This document shows, one piece after another, positions 4,095 to 12,074 of a stretch of DNA of 33,161 bases; within the stretch, counting starts at the first letter, position 1; each line of letters opens with the position of its first letter. The DNA comes from an uncultured Gammaproteobacteria bacterium (GTDB taxonomy: Bacteria; Pseudomonadota; Gammaproteobacteria; DRLM01): assembly GCA_947259075.1 (NCBI GenBank), contig CAMYKQ010000054.1, forward strand, positions 1 through 33,161, given 5' to 3'. The notes beneath the pieces were generated by a model. That model was not told the origin of the DNA, searched no databases, and worked only from the letters and a program-made list of their open reading frames with translations. The position numbers were made by a program, and so were the translations under genes.

Positions 4095-4499
4095 TTAACA
4101 GACTAGGCCTTGCGTGATCGACCATGAATCATATCCGGGACCGCCCCCACTTCCTCCCTTGCCGACGAAGCCGCCCAAGGACAGCGAAGAGAGTCCACCA
4201 CAGCCGCTCACGAAATGACCCGGCCCCACCAGCCCCGAGTAGCGTGCGCGCAGGGTTAACCACGTATCCCAGTTCTCGTCATTTTTTTGCCCCATGACCT
4301 GGAGCATGCGCTTGCTTTCGCGGCAGGCCCAGTAGTCCATGCTGCCAGCGGTGTAGCCTTGTTCGAGGCAGACGCCGTCCTCATTTTGTGGGGCGGTGGA
4401 TGCCGCGGACAAGGAAGCGGGCGAGGTGGCGCAAGCCGTTAAATACAGGGTGGCGAGCAAAGCAAACGCAATGAGTTTTTTGTGCTGGAATTGCGGCAT
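4095..4499 (-). CDS. small predicted lipoprotein of unknown function
   Basis: This 134-residue protein starts at ATG 4499. An in-frame start 12 codons upstream (4535) would put a hydrophilic stretch before the signal peptide, so the shorter form is preferred. The N-terminus is a lipoprotein signal (MPQFQHKKLIAFALLATLYL) ending in LTAC, with lipidated Cys23. The mature part has Cys-containing motifs (VCLEQGYTAGSMDYWACRESK), a charged middle, and a Gly/Ser-rich tail ending in a terminal Cys; five Cys besides the lipobox Cys suggest disulfides in the periplasm. It converges with the RND permease (13 bp gap) and is the last minus-strand gene after the GlyGly-CTERM lipoprotein, from which it is separated by a hairpin. 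I do not recognise the family. Confidence 0.7.
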   Translation of the reverse strand: MPQFQHKKLIAFALLATLYLTACATSPASLSAASTAPQNEDGVCLEQGYTAGSMDYWACRESKRMLQVMGQKNDENWDTWLTLRARYSGLVGPGHFVSGCGGLSSLSLGGFVGKGGSGGGPGYDSWSITQGLVC

Positions 4500-4597
4500 G
4501 GTATTGGACTCGGCCTCAAGCGTGCTGGGGGCCATTCTGCGCCCCGGCGGAATGTGCTGTCAAAGCGCGGGCGGCTTGGGGTGTTTGATTAGGTGGT

Positions 4598-4692: not shown

Positions 4693-5586
4693 TTAAACTG
4701 CCGGTTTTGAATTTCCAAACAAAACGCGTGCGGTCCATGCACACGCAATAAGGACCAAGCTCAGTATGTCGATGCCGCCGCCGCCACTGAATTTAAAGTT
4801 ATTCACCTTGCGCCATTGGTCGTCATGCGATCCATCCGCGACGGCCGCTTCGGTATCAGCGACAGTTAGTGCCGACATGGAGACGGCTTGTGAAAGATCG
4901 TAGTGGTCGAACTGCGTTAAGGTGGTGGTAAGGGTGTTGCCAAGGTCTTCGGTCGCGGCCAGTATGCCTTTGATGGATTGTTGCGAAAAAGCAGCGTCTC
5001 TCCCATAGCTCGTTGAATGGGTTGAACGGCTATCGATGCCGCTGGTTCGGAACATCAAAGCGTCGCTATCGATGTGGACGATTTTGCCGTCAATGAGAGT
5101 TGACGTCATCGTTTTGACCGAGGGCACGAGAAACGCGCCCACTATCGTGGCGTCGACCAGACCGCCCGGCCCGCTTTGCTGGCTTTGCTGATCTTGCTGA
5201 TAGGAGAGAATGATGGCGATGTCCGCGTCATACATGGCCCGTATCTTACTCAGATCGATCTTGGTTTTTGCGTCCTCGACGGCTACCACAGCGACGGACC
5301 TAATATATTTGGTTTGGGCGAGAAGCTGTTGCTTGAGCTGGTCTCCGGCTAGACGGAGCGTAGTCGCGGGTACATCCTGATGTTTGCTGGGAATAAAAAT
5401 GATGGCCACCGAGGCCGGGAAGCTCAGTGGCGCTCGCGTGGTCGATTGCCTCGAGTCCTTGGTGGTTTCAAGCATGGAGTTAAGCGGCTCTGACGCCGAG
5501 CCTTTCGTGGCGAACGAGCCGCAGCCACTGAGAATGGCAAGTGTGAAGAAAGTAATGCCTGCGATGAATGTACGGTAGTGAAACAT
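4693..5586 (-). CDS. GlyGly-CTERM lipoprotein (rhombotarget lipoprotein-like)
   Basis: This 297-residue protein starts at ATG 5586, chosen because AAGGAGA lies 7 nt upstream; a longer frame to 5673 overlaps the neighbour and lacks such a site. It has a lipoprotein signal with lipobox LSGC (Cys22). The C-terminus has the tripartite look of a GlyGly-CTERM sorting signal: SGGGG near residue 267, a hydrophobic helix (IDILSLVLIACAW), then a basic residue and a short tail. The body (SVAIIFIPSK, then DADIAIILSYQQD, then DATIVGAFLVPS and later DALMFRTSG) matches the pattern I know for rhombotarget lipoproteins, which rhombosortase, a rhomboid-like intramembrane protease, is thought to process. A protein lipidated at one end and membrane-anchored at the other is unusual. 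It is third in the run with the PspA-like and polytopic proteins. Family call from memory, not a search. Confidence 0.75.
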   Translation of the reverse strand: MFHYRTFIAGITFFTLAILSGCGSFATKGSASEPLNSMLETTKDSRQSTTRAPLSFPASVAIIFIPSKHQDVPATTLRLAGDQLKQQLLAQTKYIRSVAVVAVEDAKTKIDLSKIRAMYDADIAIILSYQQDQQSQQSGPGGLVDATIVGAFLVPSVKTMTSTLIDGKIVHIDSDALMFRTSGIDSRSTHSTSYGRDAAFSQQSIKGILAATEDLGNTLTTTLTQFDHYDLSQAVSMSALTVADTEAAVADGSHDDQWRKVNNFKFSGGGGIDILSLVLIACAWTARVLFGNSKPAV

Positions 5587-5639: not shown

Positions 5640-7049
5640 TTACATTTCCCATGCCTGCAATTTGGCCTTCCACGTCTCCATGCGAACGCGGATATTGCCG
5701 CTTTGCGATTCCATGACCGAGGCGATGACGATTGCGCTGATGCCGAGGGCGGTCAGGGCCGTCCAGCCGCCGAGGTCGAAGTGATGCACCAGTTGGTAGA
5801 CTTGATGCAGCAGGCCCGCCGTTGTTAACACCGCGCCGCCGCTGAAGAGGCTGCGTTGCCGCGCACGATAGCCGCGGAGCAGGAGCATGATTCCGGTGAC
5901 GAGGCAGGCGAAGGCGGCGAGTTGGCCGCTGAAGAAAAGTAGGTTGACTAGCATGCCCAGCAAGAGCGTGCTGACGGCGATGCGGCGATAAAGACCGCCG
6001 TTGTTTTGATTGCGCGCGGCGATGTCGTACACCATGACCGCCGTGGTGAACGTGCCCACGGGGAGCACCAGTGCATCGGGGAAAGCCGCGCCTTTGCTCA
6101 ACATGCAGGCGAACCAGAGGCCGGATGAGATGGCTGGAATGACGGACAGCAGATCAAGTGTGTGACGCGTTGTCGAGTCATTTTCAAAATAGAAAGAGGT
6201 CTGGCGCAGGATGAGAAAGACGCTGACGGACAGCGCGCTCATGAGGAAAAAATCCGCCGAGTAAAGCCAGAGGCTGCGGCCCATGAGTACGGCCAGCGGC
6301 AGAAATTGCAGGGCTAGGGCGGTAACGCCTTCCTGCGTTTTCGCCGCGCTGTGTTGCGTCGCGGTGCTGCGGTTGAGGATGAGCGTGATGGCGCAGAGGG
6401 CGAGGCCCAGCAGGCCGATCAGTTGCGGGTCGCGCAGCGGCAGCAGCAAGGCCGCGTTGCTGATTAAAAACAGCAGCGACAGATTTTTCGATAGGCTGCG
6501 CGCCAGCACGCTGAAGCCGAGCAGTACCACTGGCGTCAATATCAACAGTGCGCCGCCCGTGGTGAGTAATGCGCTTTGCAGGCTGTCGACGTGCCAGGCG
6601 ACGTAGTGCGGGTAGTCGCCGAGTTTTGCCGCGGTTTGCGAAAAAATGAAGGCGCCGAGGATGGCGAAGTTGGCCGGTACCGCGACCAGCGCCAGGCTTA
6701 GCAATAAGCGCGCGCCTTTACTCTCCTTGAGCCAGTGGCCGCTGGCCAAGCCGATGGCCGCCAGCGCGCCGGTGTGAGCGAGCAGCAGCAGATAGCGCAG
6801 CACGTCATTACCGTTTTGCCAGCCCTGGACGAGGAAGCTGTATATCGCGATCACCAGCGCGGCGGCGCCCAGCGTGCGCAACAGCATGGGAAATTTTTTC
6901 ATTGCGCCGGGCGCGCCGTTTTCTCCGATGGATTCGACCTGCCACGCGCCGGCGTGAGCGCCATCCGCGGCCGAGTTGGTGTTGTGATGCGTGGTAGATG
7001 CGCCGGCATTGGGCTTCGTTTGATTGAGTATCGAGCTTTGCGTGTTCAT
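5640..7049 (-). CDS. polytopic inner-membrane protein of unknown function
   Basis: This 469-residue protein has a hydrophilic, Asn/Ser/Ala-rich head of about 50 residues followed by roughly eleven or twelve hydrophobic segments (e.g. LLRTLGAAALVIAIYSFLV, ALLILTPVVLLGFSVLA, LALCAITLIL). It ends in a short, positively charged amphipathic tail (RVRMETWKAKLQAWEM). The start ATG overlaps the PspA-like gene's stop (ATGA), so the two are translated together, and the lipoprotein gene follows 53 bp downstream. I see no rhomboid catalytic GxSG/His pair, so it does not look like the rhombosortase for the next gene. There is no known transporter signature that I can identify. Partnership with a PspA-type protein suggests a membrane-integrity role; this is inference from context. 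Confidence 0.8.
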   Translation of the reverse strand: MNTQSSILNQTKPNAGASTTHHNTNSAADGAHAGAWQVESIGENGAPGAMKKFPMLLRTLGAAALVIAIYSFLVQGWQNGNDVLRYLLLLAHTGALAAIGLASGHWLKESKGARLLLSLALVAVPANFAILGAFIFSQTAAKLGDYPHYVAWHVDSLQSALLTTGGALLILTPVVLLGFSVLARSLSKNLSLLFLISNAALLLPLRDPQLIGLLGLALCAITLILNRSTATQHSAAKTQEGVTALALQFLPLAVLMGRSLWLYSADFFLMSALSVSVFLILRQTSFYFENDSTTRHTLDLLSVIPAISSGLWFACMLSKGAAFPDALVLPVGTFTTAVMVYDIAARNQNNGGLYRRIAVSTLLLGMLVNLLFFSGQLAAFACLVTGIMLLLRGYRARQRSLFSGGAVLTTAGLLHQVYQLVHHFDLGGWTALTALGISAIVIASVMESQSGNIRVRMETWKAKLQAWEM

Positions 7050-7696
7050 GGTTTCTCCTCCCCAGTTAGCAGCGCGGCCAGTTCTTCACGCAAGGCCTGT
7101 TGTTGTTCCTGGGTGATGAATTCATGTTCCAGCGCGTCTGCCGTGGCGTGCGTGTTGAGCGCCAGCTCCGCCTGGCTGAGGTTGATTTCCCAGCGCTCGA
7201 AACTGTCGTCCAAAAGGCGCGCGGTCCGGTCGTCCGTCTCGCCGGTCGCAATGAGCGCCGAGCTGGCCGATTGGCGGGCGCGTAGCAAAAGGTGTTTCTG
7301 CTTCATCTCGGCCAGCCGCCGTTCGCTGGTTTCGATGTCGCGCGCCAGCGTCAAGGTTTTGCCTTCGTATTGTGATAAGGCGTGGCCCAGTTGTTCCGTT
7401 CGTGCTTGGCAATGCTGGGCGCGGCGTAAACACGCCAGCGCCTTGGCTTCGTCGCTGGCCGCGCATTCACGCGCCCGCTGCCGCCAGCGCTGAGCTTTAT
7501 TGTTTTCTTCTTCTATCTGATTCTTGATGCGCTCTTCCTCGCGATGCAGCTGGTCCATGCGCAACTTGGCCTCGGCTACTTTTTTGCGTATCTCGCCGAG
7601 GCTGACTTGAATGAGGGCGTCGTGGTTTTCGATTTCGCCGACCACGTGGTCGATGCGCGAAACCAGGGTGGTGGTGAGACGTTTGATGATGGACAT
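7046..7696 (-). CDS. PspA/IM30-like coiled-coil protein
   Basis: This 216-residue, almost wholly alpha-helical protein resembles phage shock protein A/Vipp1: an N-terminal amphipathic helix (MSIIKRLTTTLVSRIDHVVG), a long charged coiled coil, and the segment QRWRQRARECAASDEAKALACLRR, which aligns with the AEWQEKAELAL region of E. coli PspA. Then come KQKHLLLRARQ and FERWEINLSQAE, comparable to PspA MLRHQAANS and FESFERRIDQME. Family members bind stressed inner membranes and form ESCRT-III-like assemblies. It is the first gene of the minus-strand run; GGAGG lies 9 nt before ATG 7696. It faces an XRE-type regulator rather than PspF, so control probably differs from the classical sigma-54 psp operon. 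No pspB or pspC is nearby. Confidence 0.85.
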   Translation of the reverse strand: MSIIKRLTTTLVSRIDHVVGEIENHDALIQVSLGEIRKKVAEAKLRMDQLHREEERIKNQIEEENNKAQRWRQRARECAASDEAKALACLRRAQHCQARTEQLGHALSQYEGKTLTLARDIETSERRLAEMKQKHLLLRARQSASSALIATGETDDRTARLLDDSFERWEINLSQAELALNTHATADALEHEFITQEQQQALREELAALLTGEEKP

Positions 7697-7838: not shown

Positions 7839-8582
7839 ATGGCTCAAATCGCGGCATTGATCGACGTGCTCAAACAGGCGCTGAAAAGCCATCGTCTCAC
7901 CTATGCCGAGGTGGCGCGCAAGCTGGATATGAGCGAGGCCAACGTCAAGCGCATGTTCGCCTCGAAGCGGTTCACGCTGGAGCGGCTGGAGGAGGTGTGC
8001 AAGCTGATGCGGATGGAGTTGAGCGATTTGTTTCAGCTCTATGAAGAGTCGCGCCAGCGCATCACTCAGCTGAGCCTGGAGCAGGAAGAGGAGTTGGTGC
8101 GCGATACCAAGCTGCTGCTGGTAGCGGTGAGTGTGCGCAACCGCCTCGGTTTTGATGACATCATTGCTCACTATCAAATCACCAAGAGCGAGTGCATCCG
8201 CGCCCTGGCCAAGCTCGACCGGCTCAAAATCATCGATCTCTTGCCGGACAACCGCATCAAGCTGCGCATCGACGAGGGCTTCCGCTGGCTGCCCAACGGC
8301 CCCATCGAGCGCTTCTTCGAAAAACAGATTCAGAGCCAGTTCTTGAAATCAGGGTTTAACGCCGAATTGGAGCGGCGTTTGTTCCTCTTCGGTTTGCTGG
8401 GTGACGCCTCAGTCCAGCTGGTGATCGACAAGATGCAGGCCCTGGCCAAGGAGTTCACCGAGCTGCACCGGCGCGATGCGCGCCTGCCCTTGGACAAGCG
8501 CCACAACATCGGTTTCATGCTGGCGCTGCGGCCCTGGGAGCTGGAGGTCTTCCGGCCCTTGCGGCGTAAGGGGCGTGAATAG
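7839..8582 (+). CDS. XRE-family transcriptional regulator with C-terminal sensor-like region
   Basis: This 247-residue protein has an N-terminal Cro/C1-type helix-turn-helix (HRLTYAEVARKLDMSEANVKRMFAS, then FTLERLEEVCKLMRMELSDL; about residues 17-70). Recognition-helix residues lie around SEANVKRM. A second winged-helix-like region may follow (residues 105-145, FDDIIAHYQITKSECIRALAKLDRLKIIDLL), and the remaining 100 residues are helical with no recognised ligand domain. It is divergent from the PspA-like/membrane protein/lipoprotein genes and is the likely regulator of that unit and of itself. It ends at TAG 8580-8582, after which the same frame stays open for 48 more codons. HTH assignment is firm; target and signal are inferred. 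Confidence 0.85.
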   Translation: MAQIAALIDVLKQALKSHRLTYAEVARKLDMSEANVKRMFASKRFTLERLEEVCKLMRMELSDLFQLYEESRQRITQLSLEQEEELVRDTKLLLVAVSVRNRLGFDDIIAHYQITKSECIRALAKLDRLKIIDLLPDNRIKLRIDEGFRWLPNGPIERFFEKQIQSQFLKSGFNAELERRLFLFGLLGDASVQLVIDKMQALAKEFTELHRRDARLPLDKRHNIGFMLALRPWELEVFRPLRRKGRE

Positions 8583-8742: not shown

Positions 8743-10890
8743 ATGTTGAAGACGATGCTGCGCTGGCTGTTGCTCAAGCTGTACCGGGTCGAACTCAGGG
8801 GCGCCGAGCACTTAGATAATTTCAGCGAGCGCACCATGGTGGTGGCCAACCACACCTCCTTTCTCGATGCGCTCTTGTTTTATGCCTTTTTGCCGGTGAC
8901 GGCCACCTTCGCCATCAATACCTATGTGGCGCGCAGTTGGATGGGCCGGGCGGCGGGCTGGTTTTGCAGCCTTTTTCCGCTGGATCCCGCCAACCCGCTT
9001 TCCATCCGCGCCTTGATCCGCCGCGTCGAGCAAGGCGGCTGCGTGGTGATCTTTCCCGAGGGGCGGATCACCGTCACCGGTTCCTTGATGAAGGTCTATC
9101 ACGGCCCCGGCCTGGTGGCCGAACGTTCGCGCGCCACGGTTTTGCCGATACGCATCGACGGCGCGCAATACACGCCCTTTTCGCGCTTGAGCGGCCGCGT
9201 GCGCTTGAGCTGGTTTCCAAAAATCACCTTGAACGTGCAAGCCCCGCGCTGCCTGTACGTGGACGGACGCTATCGCGGCCGCGCCCGCCGCGAAGAAGCC
9301 GGCCGCCAGTTGACGGATTTGATGGCCGAGTTGATGTTCGAGACCGCCAATAAAGATCAAACCTTGGTGGAACGATTGTTGGAAGCGCGCCGCCTGCACG
9401 GCGGCGCGCACATCGTCGCCGAAGACGTCACCCGCAGGCCCTGGACATACAACACGCTCATCACTCGCGCGGCCGTGTTGGGCGCGCAATTGGCCAAACG
9501 CAGCGAAGCGCAGGAGACCCTCGGCTTATTGCTGCCCAGCACGCTCGCCACCGTCGCCACCTTTTGGGGTTTGCAGCTCCATGGCCGCGTGCCCGCCATG
9601 CTCAATTACACCGTCGGCGCGCAAGGCATGCGTTCGGCATGTGACACCGCGGTGTTGCGCCGCGTCATCACCTCGCGTCAATTTATCGAGAAGGCCAAGT
9701 TGCAGGAGGCCGTGGCCGAGCTGGCTGAGAAAGTCGAATTGATTTATCTCGAAGATATCGCGGCCACCATTGATTGGATGGATAAGTTGACGGGTTGGGT
9801 GCAAAGCCGTTTCGATCGCGGCTTGCTGCGCCTGGCGCACCGCGATGCCAAGCAGCGCGCCGTGGTGTTATTCACCTCTGGTTCGGAAGGCGTGCCCAAA
9901 GGCGTGGTGTTATCGCATCGCAATTTGTCAGCGAATATCCATCAGCTGGTATCGCGCATCGACTTCAACGCGCAAGACGTCGCGCTTAATGCGCTGCCGC
10001 TGTTTCACTCCTTCGGCATGACCGCGGGCATGTTGCTGCCGCTCACCTCCGGCGTGCGCGTGTTTTTCTATCCCTCGCCGTTGCACTACCGCGTCATCCC
10101 CGAGGTGGCCTACGATATCAATGCCACCATTCTGTTCGGCACCAATACCTTTCTCGGCAAGTATGCGCAATTCGCCGATCCCTACGATTTTTACAGCCTG
10201 CGGTACGTCTTCGCCGGCGCCGAGAAATTGCAGGAAGAGGTGCGCCGCATCTGGTCCGACAAGTTCGGCGTGCGCATCTTTGAGGGCTACGGCGCGACCG
10301 AGACCAGTCCGGTGATCGCCGGCAACACGCCGCTGGCCAATCGTCCCGGCAGCGTCGGCCGCTTGATGCCCGGCATCGAATACCGTTTGCTCAAGGTGCC
10401 CGGCTTGGATGAAGGCCAACGTTTACAGGTGCGCGGTCCCAACGTGATGCTGGGTTATTTGCTCAGCGACCGTCCCGGCGTGCTGGTGCCGCCGGTCACC
10501 GAGTTGGGCGCGGGCTGGTACGACACCGGCGACATCGTCACCATCGACGCCGAAGGTTTCGTACGCATCTGCGGCCGCGCCAAACGTTTCGCCAAAGTGG
10601 CGGGCGAAATGGTCTCGCTCACCTCGGTGGAGGTCTTGGCCAGCAAGGTTTGGCCCAAGGCCCTGCACGCGGCCATCGCCATTCCCGATGCGCGCAAGGG
10701 TGAGCAGGTGGTGTTGCTCACCACCGCGGCGGGCGCGGAACGCGCGGCCTTGCTCGCGCAGGCGCAGGCCGACGGCATTGGAGAAATCAATGTGCCGCGG
10801 CAGTTGCGGCATGTGGCCAATATGCCCGTGCTCGGCACCGGCAAAATCGATTATGTCGCCGCTAAAAGGCTGTTGGAGCGCGCGCCGTGA
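8743..10890 (+). CDS. aas: bifunctional 2-acylglycerophosphoethanolamine acyltransferase / acyl-ACP synthetase
   Basis: At 715 residues this is close to E. coli Aas (719). It re-acylates lyso-phosphatidylethanolamine at the inner membrane using acyl-ACP made by its own ligase domain. The acyltransferase domain (residues 1-200) has NHTSFLD (HX4D at 37-42) and FPEGR (104-108). The AMP-forming ligase domain has LFTSGSEGVPKG (376-387), EGYGATE (514-520), WYDTGD (592-597) and the C-terminal lysine in GTGKIDY (Lys701). All key motifs are intact. AAGGAG stands 7-8 nt before ATG 8743. It overlaps lplT by GTGA, so flippase and acyltransferase are made together. The order aas-lplT is the reverse of E. 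coli lplT-aas. Confidence 0.95.
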   Translation: MLKTMLRWLLLKLYRVELRGAEHLDNFSERTMVVANHTSFLDALLFYAFLPVTATFAINTYVARSWMGRAAGWFCSLFPLDPANPLSIRALIRRVEQGGCVVIFPEGRITVTGSLMKVYHGPGLVAERSRATVLPIRIDGAQYTPFSRLSGRVRLSWFPKITLNVQAPRCLYVDGRYRGRARREEAGRQLTDLMAELMFETANKDQTLVERLLEARRLHGGAHIVAEDVTRRPWTYNTLITRAAVLGAQLAKRSEAQETLGLLLPSTLATVATFWGLQLHGRVPAMLNYTVGAQGMRSACDTAVLRRVITSRQFIEKAKLQEAVAELAEKVELIYLEDIAATIDWMDKLTGWVQSRFDRGLLRLAHRDAKQRAVVLFTSGSEGVPKGVVLSHRNLSANIHQLVSRIDFNAQDVALNALPLFHSFGMTAGMLLPLTSGVRVFFYPSPLHYRVIPEVAYDINATILFGTNTFLGKYAQFADPYDFYSLRYVFAGAEKLQEEVRRIWSDKFGVRIFEGYGATETSPVIAGNTPLANRPGSVGRLMPGIEYRLLKVPGLDEGQRLQVRGPNVMLGYLLSDRPGVLVPPVTELGAGWYDTGDIVTIDAEGFVRICGRAKRFAKVAGEMVSLTSVEVLASKVWPKALHAAIAIPDARKGEQVVLLTTAAGAERAALLAQAQADGIGEINVPRQLRHVANMPVLGTGKIDYVAAKRLLERAP

Positions 10891-12074
10891 ATCCCGTGCT
10901 CTATCGCGTGTTAGCCACCCAATTTCTTACCGCCTTCGCCGACAACGCCGTGTTGTTCACCGCCATCACCATGGTGATGCAGCAGACGGCGGTGGGCGGC
11001 TGGTATGTGCCCGCCTTGCAGGCCTCGTTTCTGGTGGCCTTTGTTTTGTGCGCGCCGTGGGTGGGGCGTTATGCCGATGCGCGGCCCAAACCGCGGGTCT
11101 TGTTCGGCGCCAACATCATCAAGGCCATGGGCGCGGGTTTGTTGCTGCTGCACGTCGAGCCTTTGATCGCCTACGCGCTGATCGGACTCGGCGCGGCGGC
11201 CTACAGCCCGGCCAAATACGGCATCCTGCCGGAACTGGTGGACGAGCACAGTTTGGTGAAGGCCAATGGCTGGATCGAAGGCTCGACGATACTCGCCATT
11301 CTCAGCGGCACCTTGGCGGGTGCGGCACTGGCGAATTATTCCGTGATGCTGGCGCTGGCGCTGATCATCGCTTTATATATCGCCTCGGCGCTGATCGCGT
11401 TGACCATCCGTCATCAACTGATCGCCGGTCCCGCCGCCGGGCGCGCGCTGCGCAACTTCGTTTCGCAAATGCGCGGGCTGCTGGCCACGCCGCGCGCGCG
11501 TTTTTCGACCTTGGGCGTGAGTTTGTTTTGGGCCGCCGCCACCGTGTTGCGCGTGCTGCTGGTGGCCTGGGCGCCGGCGGTGTTATTGATTCATTCCACC
11601 ACCGACATCGCCATGTTGACGCTGTTCGTCGCCATCGGCATCGCCGCCGGTTCCGTGCTGGTGCCGCGCCTCATCCCCATGGCCTATCTGCGTCGCGCGC
11701 GCATGGCGGCGTATGCCATGGGTGCGGTGATCGCGATCCTGGCAACGCTTGACAGCCTGTGGGCCGCGCGCATCGCGCTGTTTCTCGCCGGCCTCTGCGG
11801 CGGGTTGTTCGTCGTGCCCATCAACGCCGCGCTGCAGGAGATCGGCCACAAGACCATCGGCAGCGGCGGCGCGGTCGCCATTCAAAACTTTTTTGAGAAC
11901 CTGGCGATGCTGTTGGCCTCAGGTATGTACGCCTTGATCGCCGGCGCGGGCGTCGACCCGGTGGCGACGATGATCTGGCTGGGGGTGCTGGTGATCATCG
12001 CCACCGTGCTGGTGTCGTGGCATTTGCCGCGGGATACCGGTGTTTTGCTGGAGGCGCCGCGGGATAAGGAATAG
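10887..12074 (+). CDS. lplT: lysophospholipid transporter LplT (MFS)
   Basis: This 395-residue major facilitator protein (E. coli LplT: 397) would flip lysophospholipids from the outer to the inner leaflet of the inner membrane, feeding Aas. About twelve hydrophobic segments are visible. The N-terminal QFLTAFADNAVLFTA, the GRYADARPKPRVLFGANIIKAMG loop after TM2, and SPAKYGILPELV are characteristic of the family. The late FVVPINAALQEIGH and AIQNFFENL segments also fit. GTG start at 10887 overlaps the aas stop. The 369 bases that follow hold no gene. Confidence 0.93.
   Translation: MNPVLYRVLATQFLTAFADNAVLFTAITMVMQQTAVGGWYVPALQASFLVAFVLCAPWVGRYADARPKPRVLFGANIIKAMGAGLLLLHVEPLIAYALIGLGAAAYSPAKYGILPELVDEHSLVKANGWIEGSTILAILSGTLAGAALANYSVMLALALIIALYIASALIALTIRHQLIAGPAAGRALRNFVSQMRGLLATPRARFSTLGVSLFWAAATVLRVLLVAWAPAVLLIHSTTDIAMLTLFVAIGIAAGSVLVPRLIPMAYLRRARMAAYAMGAVIAILATLDSLWAARIALFLAGLCGGLFVVPINAALQEIGHKTIGSGGAVAIQNFFENLAMLLASGMYALIAGAGVDPVATMIWLGVLVIIATVLVSWHLPRDTGVLLEAPRDKE

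Follow-up and report, generated by a model that had tools for sequence, protein, structure and literature searches.

The window, a stretch of 33,161 nucleotides analysed as a whole, encodes a protein with both an N-terminal lipobox and a C-terminal sorting tail. This protein is a new and divergent representative of the rhombotarget lipoproteins, a known family, and the enzyme expected to process it is encoded in the same genome. Against the NCBIfam model TIGR04179 ('rhombotarget lipoprotein') the protein scored 183.8 bits (cut-off 150, 3.7e-54), in a match spanning profile positions 1-249 of 259; in Pfam, no family was found for it. TIGR04179 proteins have been described as full-length proteins ending with a variant GlyGly-CTERM signal (PMC5300114). 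Since the match exceeds the cut-off, the double-anchor architecture is an already catalogued design of an existing family and is not unusual in itself. We consider it probable that the double anchor is a stage of maturation, at which rhombosortase removes a temporary hold on the inner membrane and the protein then moves to the outer membrane; so read, having two anchors is nothing odd and reflects a maturation design that the whole family shares and that is linked to rhombosortase. No experiments on TIGR04179 proteins were found in the literature searched. The features of the locus are collected in Table 1.

Table 1. Features of the rhombotarget lipoprotein gene and its surroundings in the window.
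Feature	Positions	Strand	Basis
Rhombotarget lipoprotein, 297 aa	4693..5586	minus	ORF from the ATG at 5586 to the end of the stop codon at 4693; TIGR04179 match
Lipoprotein signal peptide, residues 1-22, lipobox LSGC	5521..5586	minus	Translation; Cys invariant in 49 members
Predicted folded core, residues 58-228 (b-a-b-a-b-b-b-a)	4903..5415	minus	AlphaFold2, Foldseek, VIA-align
SGGGG, residues 267-271, expected rhombosortase cleavage region	4774..4788	minus	Translation; aligned Gly conserved
C-terminal hydrophobic helix, residues 274-290, removal expected	4717..4767	minus	AlphaFold2 secondary structure, hydropathy
Polytopic membrane protein, weak DUF2157	5640..7049	minus	Pfam match below cut-off; no rhomboid match
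PspA/IM30 family protein	7046..7696	minus	Pfam PF04012 1.2e-9, over cut-off
Helix-turn-helix regulator, divergent	7839..8582	plus	Relatives near lipoprotein gene in 10 other loci
Aas-like acyl-ACP synthetase / 2-acyl-glycerophosphoethanolamine acyltransferase	8743..10890	plus	NF005959 825 bits (cut-off 886), NF005291 1030 bits
Lysophospholipid transporter LplT	10887..12074	plus	NF008397 371 bits (cut-off 297)

In the N-terminal sequence of the lipoprotein (MFHYRTFIAGITFFTLAILSGC), an n-region with Arg and then a hydrophobic stretch precede the lipobox L19-S20-G21-C22, of which Cys22 is the residue expected to be lipidated. The C-terminus consists, in this order, of SGGGG, IDILSLVLIACAWTARVLF and GNSKPAV, with R287 and K294 as the only basic residues at the end, which is thus weakly basic. 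In an alignment of 49 members, including the window protein with its Cys22, the lipobox Cys never varies and the tails can be aligned column by column. The combination of lipobox and sorting tail is more than chance, an accidental pairing of two motifs being ruled out by the family model match and this conservation. The general GlyGly-CTERM model TIGR03501 (22 positions) did not match the tail in either search, of the genome at E<=10 or of the protein at E<=1, but this failure says little, since the same model matches only 3 of the 49 family members at E<=1. The original prediction of lipidation at LSGC is in agreement with these data. Its proposal of a rhombosortase-type tail with a basic end holds for SGGGG and the helix, and less well for the basic end; among the profile models, the family-specific one recognized the protein and the general GlyGly-CTERM one did not.

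For the family as a whole, about 93 non-duplicate lipoprotein loci were collected; the 286 relatives found, of which 80 were kept, include Shewanella and Rheinheimera strains. One weak match in the class (G037/L027, 22 bits) was rejected as a member, and its longer locus yielded no lipoprotein. The tail helix is near-universal, being absent among the 93 loci only from L063, L131 and L103, the last of which is truncated by the contig. The member in L131 (6010-6738, near a contig end) stops before any tail though its genome keeps rhombosortase, indicating that the tail can be lost and is not indispensable. The window protein shares with the family the lipobox, the core, the Gly-rich motif followed by a C-terminal helix, and the presence of rhombosortase in the genome. 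It differs in being divergent, with 19-26% identity to the other aligned members and the lowest score among class members over the cut-off (183.5 bits; others 218-349), in its weaker basic end and in lacking the YLYP segment that is conserved after Cys in the family. Its gene also sits behind a PspA-like/membrane-protein pair and not beside rhombosortase.

As originally noted, no rhombosortase was detected in the window. One is encoded elsewhere in the genome, on another contig (L001, G000:C11:39381-39836; TIGR03902 159-160 bits, cut-off 84), and was confirmed on the translated protein, with GLSG at 139-142 (S141) and H199. This removes the doubt about a processing enzyme, and the original prediction has both a model match of the protein and a rhombosortase gene in the genome behind it. 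The membrane protein encoded next to the lipoprotein was rejected as the protease, no rhomboid match being found for it in Pfam, consistent with the earlier remark that it lacks rhomboid motifs. In a search of the genome for GlyGly-CTERM tails, about four other proteins emerged as plausible rhombosortase substrates, with the tails STGGGSLG...RRRR (L003), SGGGATDW...ARR (L006), EGGGASPA...RRR (L007) and AAGGGGALA...RR (L008). Two more proteins, L002 and L004 (G000:C59, G000:C29), were left out of this count because their tails resemble PEP-CTERM; this genome may have an exosortase system alongside rhombosortase. One rhombosortase with several plausible substrates fits the many-to-one arrangement described by Haft and Varghese, in which genomes with multiple targets keep the protease gene away from them (PMC3237569).

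The association of the lipoprotein with rhombosortase was also seen across the class. In a survey of 369 genomes the lipoprotein was found over the cut-off in 17 and rhombosortase in 126, and 16 of the 17 carried both (hypergeometric 2e-7, not corrected for kinship). At the level of gene order, 50 of the about 93 lipoprotein loci have rhombosortase as the next gene downstream, in the same orientation. The sole class genome with the lipoprotein and without rhombosortase over the cut-off is G163, in which only a general rhomboid (52 bits) was found. Its lipoprotein (L063, 7849-8769) keeps SGGGG, but a hydrophilic tail replaces the helix and the protein ends with SGGGGRSERENSRYKESRNDSYTEGAGRSREGQEY. 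This natural example fits a tail that is kept for rhombosortase, with the reservation that the G163 assembly is about 92% complete.

The AlphaFold2 model of the window lipoprotein (mean pLDDT 78.5) begins with a signal helix (2-24) and has a well-predicted core at about 58-228, joined to the C-terminal helix by a linker of low confidence. By Foldseek the core resembled LptE, PelC, CsgG, HpaA, FlgT and a DUF330 protein (4e-7 to 1e-4) with no sequence match, and VIA-align to the LptE/PelC/CsgG-type group gave Z of 9-11 over 120-165 residues. The core is predicted to adopt an LptE/PelC/CsgG-like alpha/beta fold, shared with the DUF330 type and the FlgT domain without significant sequence similarity; the group is rich in outer-membrane lipoproteins, and the fold gives no function. 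No rhombosortase tail is known in LptE, PelC, CsgG, DUF330-type proteins or FlgT. Searched against PDB sequences, the family profile gave only weak hits of the S100/ribosome-hibernation kind, located in the helical region, and these were set aside as noise. In E. coli, lipoproteins without Asp after Cys are sent to the outer membrane by the Lol system (the +2 rule). The +2 residue of the window protein is Gly, and Asp occupies this position in 0 of 84 scored members, so that by the Lol rule the family members would be outer-membrane lipoproteins. A lipoprotein with this destination would hardly retain a helix in the inner membrane, and removal of that helix would reconcile the two signals most simply. 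The genome also encodes Lnt and a T2SS secretin.

In the maturation pathway that we propose, Sec would export the lipoprotein, Cys22 would receive the lipid and signal peptidase II would remove the signal peptide, as the lipobox suggests, and the C-terminal helix would hold the protein in the inner membrane until the rhombosortase from the other contig cuts within SGGGG. Cleavage at this site is suggested by the model match, the co-occurrence and the gene adjacency in relatives. As published, the rhombosortase pathway serves maturation, the helix being exchanged for a lipid-containing group (PMC6219818). VesB of Vibrio cholerae is cut after the second Gly, and this Gly carries ethanolamine (+43 Da) or glycerophosphoethanolamine (+197 Da), possibly derived from phosphatidylethanolamine (PMC6219818); GlyGly-CTERM and RssP suffice for membrane association (PMC13393428). 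By analogy with VesB, the new C-terminal Gly of the window protein may be joined to a glycerophosphoethanolamine lipid, and loss of the helix would free the protein to leave for the outer membrane, where the LptE/PelC/CsgG-like core probably serves as a structural or transport-linked lipoprotein. The end product would carry one lipid, at the N-terminus, or two, at both ends; were the VesB chemistry to apply here as well, each end of the mature protein would bear a lipid.

The likeness to the VesB/GlyGly-CTERM and RssP system (PMC6219818, PMC13393428) lies in the Gly motif, in the single C-terminal helix after an unstructured linker and in rhombosortase as the expected processing enzyme. VesB differs in having an ordinary signal peptide, with no lipobox, and in being a protease moved by T2SS, and a further difference is that the window tail has no TIGR03501 match. 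The myxosortase/MYXO-CTERM system is similar in that an intramembrane protease removes a C-terminal helix and lipid anchoring has been proposed, but the protease is an unrelated one of the CPBP type and the lipid is proposed to reside on Cys of the C-terminal motif (PMC11980579).

Several observations count against maturation, namely the tail unmatched by the general GlyGly-CTERM model, the few basic residues, the divergent sequence and the loss of the tail in L131. The first two of these would suit a helix that is never cut, the lipoprotein staying permanently in the inner membrane by its lipid and its helix. We regard this as unlikely, because family members occur almost always together with rhombosortase and often next to its gene, and because the tail helix is missing in the class genome that lacks rhombosortase over the cut-off; an outer-membrane-type +2 residue would also conflict with a permanent inner-membrane helix. 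Decay of the window copy, which would then carry the N-terminal lipid only and a divergent tail no longer recognized by rhombosortase, is a decidedly improbable reading: the reading frame is unbroken, SGGGG is still there, as is a helix of normal length, and rhombosortase and other substrates are present in the genome, even though the protein scores lowest among class members over the cut-off, its tail is weakly basic and L131 shows that loss of the tail is tolerated.

In the window, the membrane-protein gene is located upstream of the lipoprotein gene in the same direction, and its start overlaps the stop of the pspA-like gene. A homologue of this membrane protein is encoded directly upstream of the lipoprotein in L080 and L059, the order pspA-membrane protein-lipoprotein is repeated in L080, and the pspA-membrane protein pair is near the lipoprotein gene in L120. 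The module made up of the pspA-membrane protein pair, regulator and aas-lplT recurs in other genomes and in the family to which the window belongs, there with no lipoprotein, and the window lipoprotein therefore looks like an addition behind that operon. In several genomes of the class (L154, L155, L156, L159, L160 and L161), PspA-like and DUF2157-like genes with the divergent helix-turn-helix gene form a conserved module with no lipoprotein, sometimes beside aas-lplT. The original suggestion of a switch, here taken to mean that both anchors persist until a signal-triggered cut at one end releases the protein or starts signalling, could draw on the neighbouring genes, a PspA-like one ahead of the lipoprotein gene and a regulator close by, which hint at envelope stress, but it is very improbable, because the published rhombosortase pathway is maturation, neither a regulatory aspect of the cleavage nor any feature tying the lipoprotein to a sensing pathway was found, and close relatives have the PspA/membrane-protein/regulator module without the lipoprotein.

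Irrespective of the pspA module, genes for Aas and/or LplT were found in the flanks of 13 of the 93 lipoprotein loci (the window, L071, L086, L088, L091, L093, L099, L120, L130, L133, L134, L144 and L147). These loci belong to Gammaproteobacteria, Betaproteobacteria and two Verrucomicrobiota bins and show several gene orders, such as aas-lplT-lipoprotein-rhombosortase in L093 and L133 and lipoprotein-rhombosortase-lplT-aas in L130. For a single aas gene, the chance of lying in such a flank is well below 1% per locus; at an assumed 0.5%, the binomial probability of at least 10 in 90 is about 4e-11, a value that overstates independence, L088 and L091 being close relatives. That the link to aas simply follows from rhombosortase was considered and rejected: among 49 class genomes with a listed rhombosortase and Aas, only G313 has the pair within 15 kb, and there the lipoprotein gene lies between them. 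For the window, the aas link may reflect just the local PspA/regulator/Aas module, which does not apply to the betaproteobacterial and verrucomicrobial loci. In the literature searched, no description of an aas/lplT neighbourhood of rhombotarget lipoprotein genes was found, and this seems to be the undescribed part of the system.

Lnt adds the third acyl chain to lipoproteins and yields lysophospholipid, which LplT and Aas recycle (PMC13170283), and a lipid-supply link between the lipoprotein and Aas/LplT is for this reason reasonable, if unproven. The fuller proposal, that the lipoprotein is lipidated at both ends, with N-acyl diacylglyceryl Cys at one and phosphatidylethanolamine at the C-terminus, and works with the Aas/LplT pair, is a tentative one and more likely wrong than right. 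The recurrent aas/lplT neighbourhood points to a lipid-related role that is directly testable, and, being small and provided with a rhombosortase tail, such a lipoprotein would serve well as a substrate for testing whether rhombosortase itself joins proteins to phosphatidylethanolamine.

Other genes adjoin the lipoprotein gene in the window and in its relatives. Directly downstream in the window (4095-4535, minus strand) is a gene for a small predicted lipoprotein with an LTAC lipobox and a Gly-rich C-terminal half, for which no family match over the cut-off was found. A gene for a lipase-like alpha/beta hydrolase, recognized by eye and without an NCBIfam match, adjoins the lipoprotein gene in L088 (6813-7571), L091 (6813-7571) and L065 (7351-8061), overlapping its stop in two loci. 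In Gallionella-related bins, a tandem paralogue or fragment is located directly upstream of the lipoprotein gene (L105, 312-1100; L132, 620-1417; L119, 5896-6174; L133, 5941-6159).
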